Shown one piece after another: positions 40,463-56,032 of a DNA stretch of 64,000 nucleotides. The position numbers and the translations under genes are program-made. The stretch covers positions 1,860,001-1,924,000 of the forward strand of contig NZ_CP119989.1 in assembly GCF_029338555.1 (NCBI RefSeq). The letters run 5' to 3'. The DNA comes from Halobaculum marinum (GTDB lineage Archaea > Halobacteriota > Halobacteria > Halobacteriales > Haloferacaceae). The notes under the pieces are model-generated. The model was not told the DNA's origin. It was given only the letters and a program-made list of their open reading frames with translations, and made no database searches. How positions within the stretch are numbered: the first letter of the stretch is position 1; the number at the start of each line of letters is the position of its first letter.

Positions 40463-40487
40463 CGTCGGCATTTCGTAGCCGTGAGTG

Positions 40488-41501
40488 ATGACCGACGTAG
40501 TCGCCACCACACCGGGGCTGTACCCACTCCCGGACTGGGCGAAAGGCGAACTCTCCGACCTGAAGGGCCACCAGAAACACGACCTCATCGACGGCGCCGA
40601 GGGCGCGGCGGTGACGGACGTGTACGACGACGTGCGCGCCGAACTCGTCGCCGACCAGCGCGAGGCCGGCCTCGACCGCGTCGTCGAGGGCCAGGGCCGC
40701 TGGGACGACATGCTCGCGCACCCGCTCACCGTCCACGACGCCGTTGAGACGGGCGGCATCGTCCGCTACTACGACAACAACAACTTCTACCGCGACCCGC
40801 GCGTCGTCGACGACCTCACGCCGTCGGGCGACGTGGCCGCGGAACTGACCGCGGCGAGCGACCTGCTCGGCGACGACGCACTGCAGGCGGTCCTGCCGGG
40901 GCCGTACACGCTCGCGGACCTGGCGACCGACGAGCACTACGGTGACGAGGCCGAGTTCCTCGACGCCGTCGGCGAGTTCCTCGCCGGCGAGGTGGAGGCG
41001 TTCCCCGCCCACGATACGCTGTTCCTCCTCGAGCCGTCGTACGTGACGAACACGCCCGGTGACGACCTGAACGAACTCGCCAGCGAGACCATCGACCGCG
41101 TCGCCGCGGCGACGGACGCCGACGTCGTCGTGCAGACGTACTGGGACGCGTTCGAGGAGAAGGCGTACGCGCACCTGATGGACGCCGACATCGACGCCGT
41201 CGGCTTCGACTTCGTCGCCGCCGACCGCGCGGCGAACCTGGAGTGCATCAACGAACTCGGCACGACCGACGACATCGCACTCGGCCTCGTCGACGGGCAG
41301 AACACGCTCGTCGAAGGCGCCGAGACGGTCGCCGAGCGCGTCGACTGGGTTCACGACCAGATCCCCGCACAGACGTTCGACACGACGTACGTGACGCCCA
41401 ACACCGAGACGTTCTACCTGCCCGTGAACAAGCACAAGGCCAAGTTGTCCGTGCTCGCGGAGGCCGCAGACATCGCCGCCGCCGAGGAGGTGGAGGCGTG
41501 A
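40488..41501 (+). CDS. MetE-family protein, zinc-site-lacking paralogue
   Basis: A 337-residue UROD/MetE-like TIM-barrel protein that forms the first half of the split methionine synthase pair. Seen: LYPLPDWAKGELSDLKGHQ, the IVRYYDNNNFYRDPR block, VLPGPYTLADLA, EPSYVTN and LGLVDGQNTLVEGAETVA. At the place where the C-terminal MetE zinc site has His-x-Cys, this chain has VVVQTYWDAF, and it has no cysteine near the C-terminal position either. It thus lacks the homocysteine-binding zinc and probably serves as partner or methyl-donor-binding half. ATG 40488 is used instead of the GTG just before it. GTGA overlap with the next gene couples both. Confidence 0.88.
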   Translation: MTDVVATTPGLYPLPDWAKGELSDLKGHQKHDLIDGAEGAAVTDVYDDVRAELVADQREAGLDRVVEGQGRWDDMLAHPLTVHDAVETGGIVRYYDNNNFYRDPRVVDDLTPSGDVAAELTAASDLLGDDALQAVLPGPYTLADLATDEHYGDEAEFLDAVGEFLAGEVEAFPAHDTLFLLEPSYVTNTPGDDLNELASETIDRVAAATDADVVVQTYWDAFEEKAYAHLMDADIDAVGFDFVAADRAANLECINELGTTDDIALGLVDGQNTLVEGAETVAERVDWVHDQIPAQTFDTTYVTPNTETFYLPVNKHKAKLSVLAEAADIAAAEEVEA

Positions 41502-52690: not shown

Positions 52691-53341
52691 CTACTCCGCG
52701 CCGGCGTCTGTCTCCCCCGCGACGTCGTACTCTCGCCACCCAGTCTCGGCCGTCAGCGTCTCGAACGCCTCGCGCTCGGCTGGGCCGCCGCACCGGTCGA
52801 CCACGGCCGCGAAGTAGCGCAGTCGCTCCACCAGCGCGGCGGTGTCGTACGCCGGCACGTCCAGTCGCGACGCCGCCACAGTCGCGTCGATTACGGCGCC
52901 GAAGCCGCGGTTGATCGTTCGAACTCCGGTGTGCTCGACCGCGGCGTCGACCACGTGCAGGTGCCAGTCGACCCACTGGGTCCCGCCTCGTTCGCCGGCG
53001 TCGACGCGCTCGACGTCGACTTCGGCCCACGCGTCCGCCGAGTCGAGGACGGGCGTCGGCTCCTCGCGAATCGTGACCGCGGCGTCGACGAACTCGCGGG
53101 GGTCCGTCACGAACTGGACGACGCCGCCGCCGCGCTCGCGGAAGTTGCGCCACGTCCGCGTCCGCCCCCACGTTCGCGCCCGGACCGGCGCGGTCGCCGA
53201 CCTGCCGTCGTGGTCGGGCGCGTGGAGGCCGAGCGCGGCGACGTTCCACAGGTCGTTCGGCCCCAGCGTCGCGACCACCGACTCCGTCACCCCCGCGAGC
53301 GCGACCGGCCAGTCGGCGGTCTCATCGGCGTCACCGCTCAT
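52691..53341 (-). CDS. DUF447 family protein
   Basis: A 216-residue soluble protein. Seen: the opening PVALAGVTESVVATLGPNDLW, NVAALGLHAPD, VRARTWGRTRTWRNFRE, FVTDPREFVDAAVTI and the histidine/aspartate-rich VDWHLHVVDAAVEH, with NRGFGAVIDATVAASRLDVP. DUF447 homologues occur in methanogens and in bacteria that make tetrahydromethanopterin, and are thought to use a split-barrel fold; function is unknown. Its ATG overlaps the stop of the CitG-like gene (ATGA). It is the last gene of the four-gene unit cofD-Dus-like-CitG-like-DUF447. Confidence 0.85.
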   Translation of the reverse strand: MSGDADETADWPVALAGVTESVVATLGPNDLWNVAALGLHAPDHDGRSATAPVRARTWGRTRTWRNFRERGGGVVQFVTDPREFVDAAVTIREEPTPVLDSADAWAEVDVERVDAGERGGTQWVDWHLHVVDAAVEHTGVRTINRGFGAVIDATVAASRLDVPAYDTAALVERLRYFAAVVDRCGGPAEREAFETLTAETGWREYDVAGETDAGAE

Positions 53342-54216
53342 ACGGTCACCCCGCGTTCGAGCGCGACGAACAGCGCCGCCGCGGTGAGGTCCGCGGTCGT
53401 TCCGGGGTTGACGCCGCGATCGACCAACTCGGCGGCCCACGCCTCCGCGTCCGCCAAGGACTCGACCTCGGCGGCGCGCTCCCGCACCTCGGCGGCCGCC
53501 TCGGCCCCGTGCTGTGTCCGCACGAGCGTGTCGTCCGCCTCCGCCAGCAGGTCGAGGAACGCCCGCGCCGCACGGTCGACGAGCGGGCCGTCGTCGGCGA
53601 CGATGGCCTCAGCGGCGCGGAACGTCCGCCGGAACCCCTCTACCCACTCGCGCGCGTTGGCGTCTCCGGGCGTCCCCGCGTCGTCGACTGGCTCTGCGGA
53701 CGCCGACAGCACGTCGAACAGCGTCGTTTCACGCTCGCGCAGCGCGGGCACCGCGTCGGCGCCACGGCGCACGTCGAGCGCGTCCATCCCCTCGGGCGGG
53801 TCGGCGACCGCCACGTCGACGTGCTCGAACGCGCGGTAGAAGCCCGCTGCGTCAGCGACAGTCGTCGCCTCGCACACGTCTCGCACGCCGGACGGGGAGA
53901 GGTCACCCGCCGCTACCGCCCGAACGAGCGGCACGAGCAAGAGCAGACAGCCGAACTGCGTGTTGCCGCCGGACTGCTCGCTCATCCCCGCGACCGCCGT
54001 CTCGAACGCTTCGCCGACGGGCGCACCCGCGGCGGCACGCTCCAGTCCCGGGCGCGCGCCGACCGCCCCGGCGAGGAACTGCTCGAACCGCAGGTCCACG
54101 AGGTCCCGGTGACGGTCGACGTTGCCCGGCTTCGGCGTCCCCGCGACCTCCAGCAGGAGTGCGAGTTCGGCGTTCGCGGCGGGGCCGCGCCGCGGTGGCT
54201 CGCTGCCACCGCTCAT
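53338..54216 (-). CDS. CitG-like protein (triphosphoribosyl-dephospho-CoA synthase family)
   Basis: A 292-residue helical protein. Seen: AELALLLEVAGTPKPGNVDR, where the KPGNVDR block is the CitG/MdcB nucleotide/Mg loop, EQFLAGAVGARPGLE, GEAFETAVAGMSEQSGGNTQFGCLL, and the later DVDVAVADPPEGMDALDVRR region. CitG makes the prosthetic group precursor of citrate lyase in bacteria. Archaea have no citrate lyase, so this archaeal branch must act on something else, perhaps in cofactor synthesis. It overlaps the Dus-like gene (ATGA) and DUF447 (ATGA), so all are co-translated. Confidence 0.85.
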   Translation of the reverse strand: MSGGSEPPRRGPAANAELALLLEVAGTPKPGNVDRHRDLVDLRFEQFLAGAVGARPGLERAAAGAPVGEAFETAVAGMSEQSGGNTQFGCLLLLVPLVRAVAAGDLSPSGVRDVCEATTVADAAGFYRAFEHVDVAVADPPEGMDALDVRRGADAVPALRERETTLFDVLSASAEPVDDAGTPGDANAREWVEGFRRTFRAAEAIVADDGPLVDRAARAFLDLLAEADDTLVRTQHGAEAAAEVRERAAEVESLADAEAWAAELVDRGVNPGTTADLTAAALFVALERGVTV

Positions 54217-55043
54217 CGCGACGCCTCCGTCCTGCGGCGACGACCGCTCGCGGTGTCGTCGGTCCACTCGCCGACGGCATCACGGACGCGGGCGAGCACG
54301 CGCGAATCGTCGCTCGGTCGACCGACGCTCACCGCGTCTGCGCCGGCGGCGAGGTACTCCCGGACCGTCCGCCGGTCCCGGACACCGTTGTTCGCGATCA
54401 CGACGAGGTCCGGTGCGGCAGCTTTCACGAGTGCGACGACGCCCTCGGAGTCCATCGCGTCCACGTGGACCGCGTCCCCCCCGGCGTCGGCGACGGCCCG
54501 CGCGGTCGCCGGGAGGTCCACGCCGTCGACCTCAGCGCGGACCTTCACGCTCACGTCGGCGCCCGTCGCACTCGCGGCGGCGACGTACTCGCACAGGCGG
54601 TCGGTGTCGCGCAGGAGCGTCTCGCCACAGCCAACCTCACACAGCTCCGCCTGTCGGCAGTGGGCGTTCACCTCCAGCACGGCGTCGTGGGCTGCACACA
54701 CCGCCGCGGCGTCGCCGACGGCGTCGGCGCTCGTGGCCCGGACGTTGACGCCGGCGCGGATGTCGGCGTCCGCCAGCGCGGCCAGTTGGTCCTCCATCCA
54801 AGCGACCGGGTCCGGCGGGAGGAACTCCGAGCGGTCGCGGTCGACGACGCTCGCGCGGGCGGCCTCGCGACTCTCGGCGTCCAGTGCGATCCCGCCGAGG
54901 AAGGCGACGCCGGAGTACTCGGCCCCCGACCGCGCCCACGCCGCGTCCGCGTCGCCCGAGAGGCTCGCGAGCGCGAGCGGCGGATCGATCCCGAGATCAG
55001 TCGCGGTCGCCCTCGCCGGCCCGTCCGTCCCGCCGCCGCTCAC
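54213..55043 (-). CDS. tRNA-dihydrouridine synthase-like protein (single TIM barrel)
   Basis: A 276-residue FMN TIM-barrel protein. Seen: [40 protein letters not shown] (with Cys in the position of the Dus catalytic Cys, but His-Cys-Arg instead of Gly-Cys-Pro), [30 protein letters not shown] and [18 protein letters not shown]. It ends soon after the barrel, so it lacks the C-terminal helical tRNA-binding domain of true Dus enzymes (about 310-330 residues). GTG 55043 overlaps the cofD stop (GTGA). The substrate is more likely a small molecule than tRNA, but this is an inference. Confidence 0.8.
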
Positions 55044-56032
55044 CGCGCCACCTCCAGCGCCTCCCGGCACGCCCGCGCGACGCGAGCGGCGTCGTCCGCG
55101 TCGTCGATCCGGGTGTCCGTCCGCACGACCGGCCGGTCGAGGTCGGTGCCGTCGTCGTCGTCGAGGACGAACGCGTCCGCGAACGGGTACGCCGCCGCGA
55201 CGCCGGCGGTGCTCGGCTCTCGGCCGGTCCCGCGCATGAGGGCGGCGGCGGGCCCGGAGAACACCTGATCCTCCACGAACGGGGAGACGGCGACGACGGT
55301 CGTCTCGGCCAGCGCCTCGCGGATGCCATCGAGCGCGAGCATCGGGCCGATACTGGTGACGGGGTTCGACGGCCCGATCACCACGTCGTCACGGAGCGCC
55401 TCTTGGACCGCGTCGGTCGCCGTGGCCTCCGCTGCGCCGCGGAACTCCACGTCCTCGACGGTCGGTTCACCACGGTTGGCGACCCAGTACTCCTGGAAGT
55501 GCATCGACCCCTCGTCCGTGTGGACGATGGTCGCGACGGGGTCGTCGCTCATCGGGATCAGTTCCACGTCGAGGTCGAAGGCGTCCGCGAGCGTTCGCGT
55601 CACGTCGGTGAGACTGTGCCCCTCGTCGAGCAGCGAGGTGCGCGTGACGTGGACCGCGCGGTCGCGGTCGCCGATCTCCATGAACTCCGCAACGCCGGAG
55701 AACCGACGCCACTGGGAGATGTCGCGCCCGGCAGTCTGTGCGTCGTCGGGGAGGTAGCGGGGACCGCCGTCGAGACCCGCGGCGTCGGCGAGGCGCGTGA
55801 GTTCGGCGTGCGTCTCGGTGGTGTCGTCGGCGATGCCCCACCAGCGCTCGGTGTCGAGGACGCCGCCGCCGTGGAAGAGGACGGTGTCGACGTCCGGACA
55901 CACGAGGTGCCCGCCGAGTTCCACGTCGTCGCCGGTGTTCCCGACGACGGTCGTCGACTCGGGAGCGAAGACGCCCGCGGCACCGTCGAGAAGCTTCGGC
56001 GTGCCGGTGCCGCCGGCGAGGAACGTGACCAT
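55040..56032 (-). CDS. cofD: 2-phospho-L-lactate transferase
   Basis: A 330-residue CofD/FbiA enzyme, transferring a phospholactyl-type group to Fo to give F420-0. Seen: [20 protein letters not shown], the [21 protein letters not shown] block, [13 protein letters not shown], the [13 protein letters not shown] segment, [45 protein letters not shown] and [16 protein letters not shown]. It is the first gene of the minus-strand unit and its stop overlaps the Dus-like start. The gCA gene is divergent. F420 is used in haloarchaea. Confidence 0.95.

Follow-up and report, generated by a model that had tools for sequence, protein, structure and literature searches.

Which process joins the F420 biosynthesis gene cofD to a Dus-like, a CitG-like and a DUF447 gene in one fully overlapped unit? 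The question is raised by a 64,000-nucleotide (nt) stretch of the Halobaculum marinum genome (contig NZ_CP119989.1, positions 1,860,001 to 1,924,000; hereafter the window), where these four genes follow one another on the reverse strand. We find that the unit consists of two modules: the Dus-like gene goes with cofD, and CitG and DUF447 go with MptG (a homologue of beta-ribofuranosylaminobenzene 5'-phosphate (beta-RFAP) synthase), Mer (a homologue of methylene-tetrahydromethanopterin (methylene-H4MPT) reductase) and a split methionine synthase, MetE. An earlier note on this DNA had taken the three non-CofD genes as one group, which these results divide. In most haloarchaea the unit probably links an F420 gene and its Dus-like companion with two genes from the pathway of a methanopterin-type carrier. 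On balance we also lean, if narrowly, towards a wider proposal, in which nearly all haloarchaea make a second, so far undescribed one-carbon carrier of the methanopterin type, RFAP-derived and ribosylated, that takes a methyl group from Mer to the split MetE, and in which Halobacterium salinarum, a classical model organism, belongs to the few that have lost it. The genes of the unit, and the conserved gene that follows it, are these:

55040..56032, reverse strand: cofD, 2-phospho-L-lactate transferase (F420 biosynthesis); TIGR01819 equivalog, 392.7 bits against a cutoff of 257.45

54213..55043, reverse strand: Dus-like TIM-barrel flavoenzyme of the MJ0144/TIGR00736 type, minus the Dus C-terminal part; PF01207, 28 bits

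53338..54216, reverse strand: CitG-like protein of the ATP:dephospho-CoA triphosphoribosyltransferase family; PF01874, 200.8 bits against a gathering score of 27

52691..53341, reverse strand: DUF447, a flavin mononucleotide (FMN)-binding-type split-barrel protein; PF04289 and PF20766

52431..52625, reverse strand: rps17e, conserved gene after the unit, recognised from its translation

As the earlier note had read them, the four genes overlap by 4 nt at all three junctions (GTGA, ATGA and ATGA). When genes were called crudely across the window, a 4-nt overlap was possible in 6 of 34 same-strand neighbour pairs, and the run of three consecutive overlaps is the cofD-to-DUF447 unit. In-frame upstream starts are also present for the Dus-like, CitG-like and DUF447 genes, so their exact starts are predictions. 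The order cofD, Dus-like, CitG, DUF447 was found again at 73 of the 80 named loci in haloarchaea, across many genera and usually with rps17e next; the linkage for which the earlier note had called for a neighbourhood survey is therefore conserved and not a matter of chance. Among other Halobacteriota, CitG and DUF447 usually adjoin, often with the Dus-like gene ahead, and cofD was mostly not in the short stretches read. Three Halobellus loci (L148, L160 and L199) retain cofD and the Dus-like gene, with CitG and DUF447 not found within the next 4 kb; since almost all haloarchaea retain CitG, the pair has probably been relocated there. CitG and DUF447 genes also lie at 651807-652610 of CP031304.1, a 987-kb record of Natrinema thermotolerans listed as a plasmid, and a tblastn search of the plasmid collection gave Natrinema as its sole match.

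The genomes that lack the pair are the most informative. We scored the presence of CitG across 293 haloarchaeal genomes, and that of DUF447 and MptG in 24 haloarchaea sampled evenly. CitG was found in 290 of the 293; the absentees are G136, whose CofD is identical to that of H. salinarum DSM 3754, and G027 and G077, the two genomes of g15, a genus related to H. salinarum. DUF447 is absent from three of the 24 haloarchaea, exactly the CitG absentees, and MptG, some 1.1 Mb away from the unit in the window's genome, is missing from the same three alone. Mer scored at least 289 bits in all 16 CitG-bearing genomes tested and, at a threshold of 285 bits, is missing from the three absentees (19 tested), and MetE2, the second subunit of the split methionine synthase, is intact in all 28 genomes tested besides the absentees and a relic or absent in those three (31 tested). 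MptG, CitG, DUF447, Mer and intact MetE2 are thus jointly absent, and such a co-lost set is what would be expected if these genes served the synthesis of a methanopterin-type methyl carrier and its use in making methionine. All three genomes retain CofD, with the Dus-like gene still adjoining it, together with Mch and two pterin-binding dihydropteroate synthase (DHPS) homologues (PF00809). The idea that the second DHPS is dedicated to the carrier was rejected, both homologues being retained. In G027, cofD and the Dus-like gene are followed by rps17e and asd; the CitG-DUF447 pair has dropped out cleanly, and rps17e marks the point of excision. Other genomes of the genus of H. salinarum carry the genes, which implies at least two separate losses.

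Profile searches show that the haloarchaeal methionine synthase is split into a catalytic and a pterin-binding-type subunit; split methionine synthases, that of Sulfolobus included, have been described before (PMC7857596). The pair in the window is the following:

40485..41501, forward strand: MetE2, pterin-binding-type subunit of the split methionine synthase; PF08267, 50.7 bits

41498..42580, forward strand: MetE1, catalytic subunit of the split methionine synthase; PF01717, 193.7 bits, and PRK04326, 535 bits

The two overlap by 4 nt, with a GTG start of MetE1 at 41498, and lie about 10 kb from the cofD-DUF447 unit. In H. salinarum the catalytic MetE1 is absent and an orphan, diverged MetE2 is left, in which the otherwise conserved YYDNNNFYRDP stretch is destroyed. 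This relic (L283:5034-5981, reverse strand, on contig 3 of G136) is 55% identical to its Halobacterium relatives, and MetE1 is not nearby. G027 and G077 (L278 and L277) retain one stand-alone catalytic MetE and lack the second subunit; in both genomes the catalytic gene directly adjoins the gene of an ATP-synthase B-type subunit.

Could these losses reflect only the shedding of genes by reduced or auxotrophic genomes, with no common pathway behind them? H. salinarum, for which methionine is essential (PMC2674319), has lost more than 60 widely shared gene clusters, clusters for other amino acids included (PMC3102087), so that its losses alone prove little. This objection is answered by the two g15 genomes, which show the same set of absences and yet retain a stand-alone catalytic MetE, and by equally small genomes that retain CitG (G151, G019, G220, G095 and G240; 1.9-2.5 Mb). 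Moreover, the absentees retain CofD, the Dus-like gene, Mch and the DHPS homologues, and identical absentee sets for three families would arise by chance with a probability of about 2e-7 unstructured, or 2e-5 if counted as two events, most of the phylogeny being ignored in both figures. We consider gene shedding without a common pathway distinctly unlikely.

The retention of CofD also bears on the F420 side. The earlier note had proposed that the genes beside cofD add an unrecognised step in F420 maturation or make another cofactor. The conserved linkage to cofD in haloarchaea speaks for the former, but CitG and DUF447 are not present wherever CofD is present, both being absent from three CofD-positive genomes. 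In Sulfolobus acidocaldarius, searched as a control, MptG, CitG and DUF447 were found and CofD did not come over the cutoff, and in methanogens the neighbour of the pair is a TIGR02700 homologue or the Dus-like gene, most of the short stretches read there having no cofD. Since cofD and the Dus-like gene are kept without them, CitG and DUF447 are not needed for F420; a maturation step is very improbable, and of the two possibilities it is the other cofactor that is supported for these two genes.

The Dus-like gene, on the other hand, belongs with cofD. Its PF01207 alignment spans only positions 70-216 of the 311 in the profile, without the C-terminal (tRNA-binding) part, and it scores 123.1 bits with TIGR00736 (the MJ0144 family), below the cutoff of 218.7; haloarchaeal copies score 105-134 bits. 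It might be a flavin ene-reductase of the F420 side, acting on dehydro-F420-0 or on phosphoenolpyruvate and so reducing or supplying the lactyl group. A Dus-type core without the Dus C-terminal part, the overlap with cofD and the persistence beside cofD in the three CitG absentees would fit such an enzyme, as would the unresolved origin of haloarchaeal 2-phospholactate (PMC8305020). However, the gene is missing from the cofD-bearing G014 and from many other genomes of the phylum, and for several archaeal CofC/CofD pairs 2-phospholactate is itself the substrate (PMC8764529); we regard this role as rather unlikely. At L105 (G014) and L190 (Halapricum hydrolyticum), CitG directly follows cofD and the Dus-like gene is missing.

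A second F420 gene has a comparable neighbour: mer directly follows cofE in G000, G106 and G160, an adjacency that parallels that of cofD with CitG-DUF447. In G000 (L291:4554-6348) cofE and mer overlap by 8 bases, a second case in which a gene for F420 is paired with one from the proposed carrier branch.

What, then, could CitG and DUF447 do? The CitG-like protein belongs to PF01874, and membership in this family would be compatible with synthesis of triphosphoribosyl-dephospho-CoA for a citrate or malonate lyase. Yet it scores only 18.6 bits with the CitG equivalog (cutoff 272.3) and 29.7 with the MdcB equivalog (cutoff 282.35), and beyond its near-universal presence in haloarchaea it occurs in nearly all other Halobacteriota sampled, commonly adjoining DUF447; a lyase role, which we rejected on these grounds, is hardly credible. 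Its invariant motifs PKPGN, NT.FG, DT and NPG..AD are common to the methanogen homologues. CitG enzymes use ATP to form an alpha-ribosyl bond, releasing adenine, and the ribitol of methanopterin bears an alpha-ribosyl group; given this correspondence, we propose the CitG-like protein as a ribosyl transferase.

DUF447 has the Pfam domains and the split-barrel fold of its FMN-bound relatives, and it is predicted to bind FMN. Its AlphaFold model (mean predicted local distance difference test score, pLDDT, 94.7) matches the FMN-bound structures 2iml (Archaeoglobus) and 2nr4 (Methanosarcina) with a Z score of 22, in a structural comparison that was confined to DUF447 and excludes no family. At non-haloarchaeal loci the gene adjoining DUF447 is a TIGR02700 homologue in 11 of 40 cases; four of four tested exceed the cutoff of this family, which is named dihydromethanopterin reductase (acceptor). 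Profile searches also bear out the statement in the earlier note that DUF447 and this CitG branch occur in methanogens; for methanopterin-making bacteria, named there as well, the support that we found is the solved DUF447 structure from Rhodopirellula baltica and no other.

The two members of the set that lie away from the unit can be placed by family. With TIGR00144 (cutoff 113.5) MptG of G000 scores 146 bits and most haloarchaea lie above the cutoff, G014 falling below it with 111 bits. The motifs HxGLGSGTQ and GRGGxSGxGVA (the phosphoribosyl pyrophosphate (PRPP) loop) and Arg26 are found in nearly all aligned haloarchaeal copies, the RFAP synthase residues, Arg26 and Asp19 among them, being taken from PMC6787355. 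The neighbourhood of MptG showed no evident metabolic partner. MptG, CitG and DUF447 of the window's genome were matched at the level of family, through control hits in Haloferax volcanii, to HVO_2628 and the genes after HVO_2479. Mer scores 452.6 bits with the methylene-H4MPT reductase model PRK02271 (cutoff 276). H. salinarum gives a 133-bit match in the same lower-scoring tier as copies that, in other haloarchaea, stand a few kb away from the second homologue of DHPS, and we therefore take it as a paralogue and not as Mer.

The product of MptG, CitG and DUF447 might nevertheless not be a pterin carrier: a C-riboside, for instance, or a ribosylated group of the CoA type might be what methionine synthesis or Mer needs. 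For the CitG-like and DUF447 proteins the reactions are putative, and ForT is a relative of MptG. ForT is reported to make C-nucleosides (PMC8183095), so membership in the family does not fix the product. Against this, the co-lost Mer and MetE2 belong to families of pterin enzymes, and in methanogens the neighbouring gene is that of a dihydromethanopterin reductase; we give a non-pterin product little credence.

We thus return to the methanopterin-type carrier, whose chemical identity we infer, as we do the individual enzyme reactions and the direction in which the pathway runs. In the proposed scheme, beta-RFAP from MptG would supply the arylamine of a pterin made beside tetrahydrofolate. The CitG-like protein would transfer a (tri)phosphoribosyl group from ATP or PRPP to the ribitol side, and the FMN-binding DUF447 protein would carry out a reduction, perhaps one that opens the ribofuranosyl ring of RFAP to ribitol. 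F420-dependent Mer would then reduce the methylene carrier to its methyl form, and the split MetE would pass the methyl group to homocysteine. The steps proposed for CitG-like and DUF447 are guesses from chemistry and are weaker than the assignment of the two genes to the pathway.

Several further points weigh against a methanopterin-type carrier. Haloarchaeal MptG mostly has Asn at the position of RFAP synthase Asp19; the D19N variant of the Methanothermobacter enzyme retains some activity (PMC6787355). Mer, at 290.2 bits, falls below the stricter TIGR03555 cutoff of 348.7. Mch, which we had considered as depending on the carrier, is retained in the absentees and is therefore independent of the proposed pathway, and no DmrX homologue was seen in 11-kb haloarchaeal neighbourhoods. 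No methanopterin-type carrier is reported from haloarchaea in the literature consulted on the topic. Folate genes are present in haloarchaea and tetrahydrofolate has been detected in some (PMC3261824), so that what we propose is no replacement but a second carrier, or else a modified folate. A review of Haloferax annotation from 2021 states that haloarchaea have no methanopterin-specific enzymes and judges HVO_2628 not to be isofunctional (PMC8305020).

The joint-loss pattern suggests otherwise; it is evidence against that view, not proof, and makes for a testable contradiction. It also puts in question the premise of the earlier note that haloarchaea have no methanopterin. Prevailing annotation has haloarchaea switching from methanopterin to tetrahydrofolate (PMC8305020), and the pattern suggests that this switch was incomplete. 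If the proposal is true, F420 would be central in haloarchaea, supplying methyl groups for methionine, and the association of cofD with citG-DUF447 and of cofE with mer would be explained. The CitG-like and DUF447 steps of methanopterin synthesis would then be placed in a tractable aerobe, Haloferax volcanii, in which methionine should rescue the mutants.

How does this system compare with known ones? With the tetrahydromethanopterin biosynthesis of methanogens and methylotrophic bacteria (MptG, CitG/DUF447-type proteins and DmrX/DmrA) it shares homologues of MptG, CitG-like and DUF447, with CitG adjoining DUF447; it differs in that haloarchaea also have folate genes, that DmrX was not seen beside the pair and that the carrier is here a proposal based on genes. 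With the CitG/MdcB triphosphoribosyl-dephospho-CoA synthases the haloarchaeal protein shares a full-length PF01874 domain, but it lies far under their equivalog cutoffs and no citrate or malonate lyase setting was seen. The DUF447 proteins 2iml (Archaeoglobus), 2nr4 (MM1853), 2ptf (MTH_863) and 3b5m (Rhodopirellula) share its fold (Z 15-22) and its conserved residues; bound FMN is described for three of them, and no reaction is assigned to any of the four in their records. The folate of Sulfolobus solfataricus contains an aminophenyl-tetrahydroxypentane part, as cited in ref. 34 of PMC3261824. This modified folate, with its 5-(p-aminophenyl)-1,2,3,4-tetrahydroxypentane, is a further likeness, since by profile search S. 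acidocaldarius has the same trio of MptG, CitG and DUF447 and the MetE of Sulfolobus is split too. In S. acidocaldarius CofD did not reach the cutoff and there is no Mch, whereas haloarchaea would pair their carrier with F420 and Mer.

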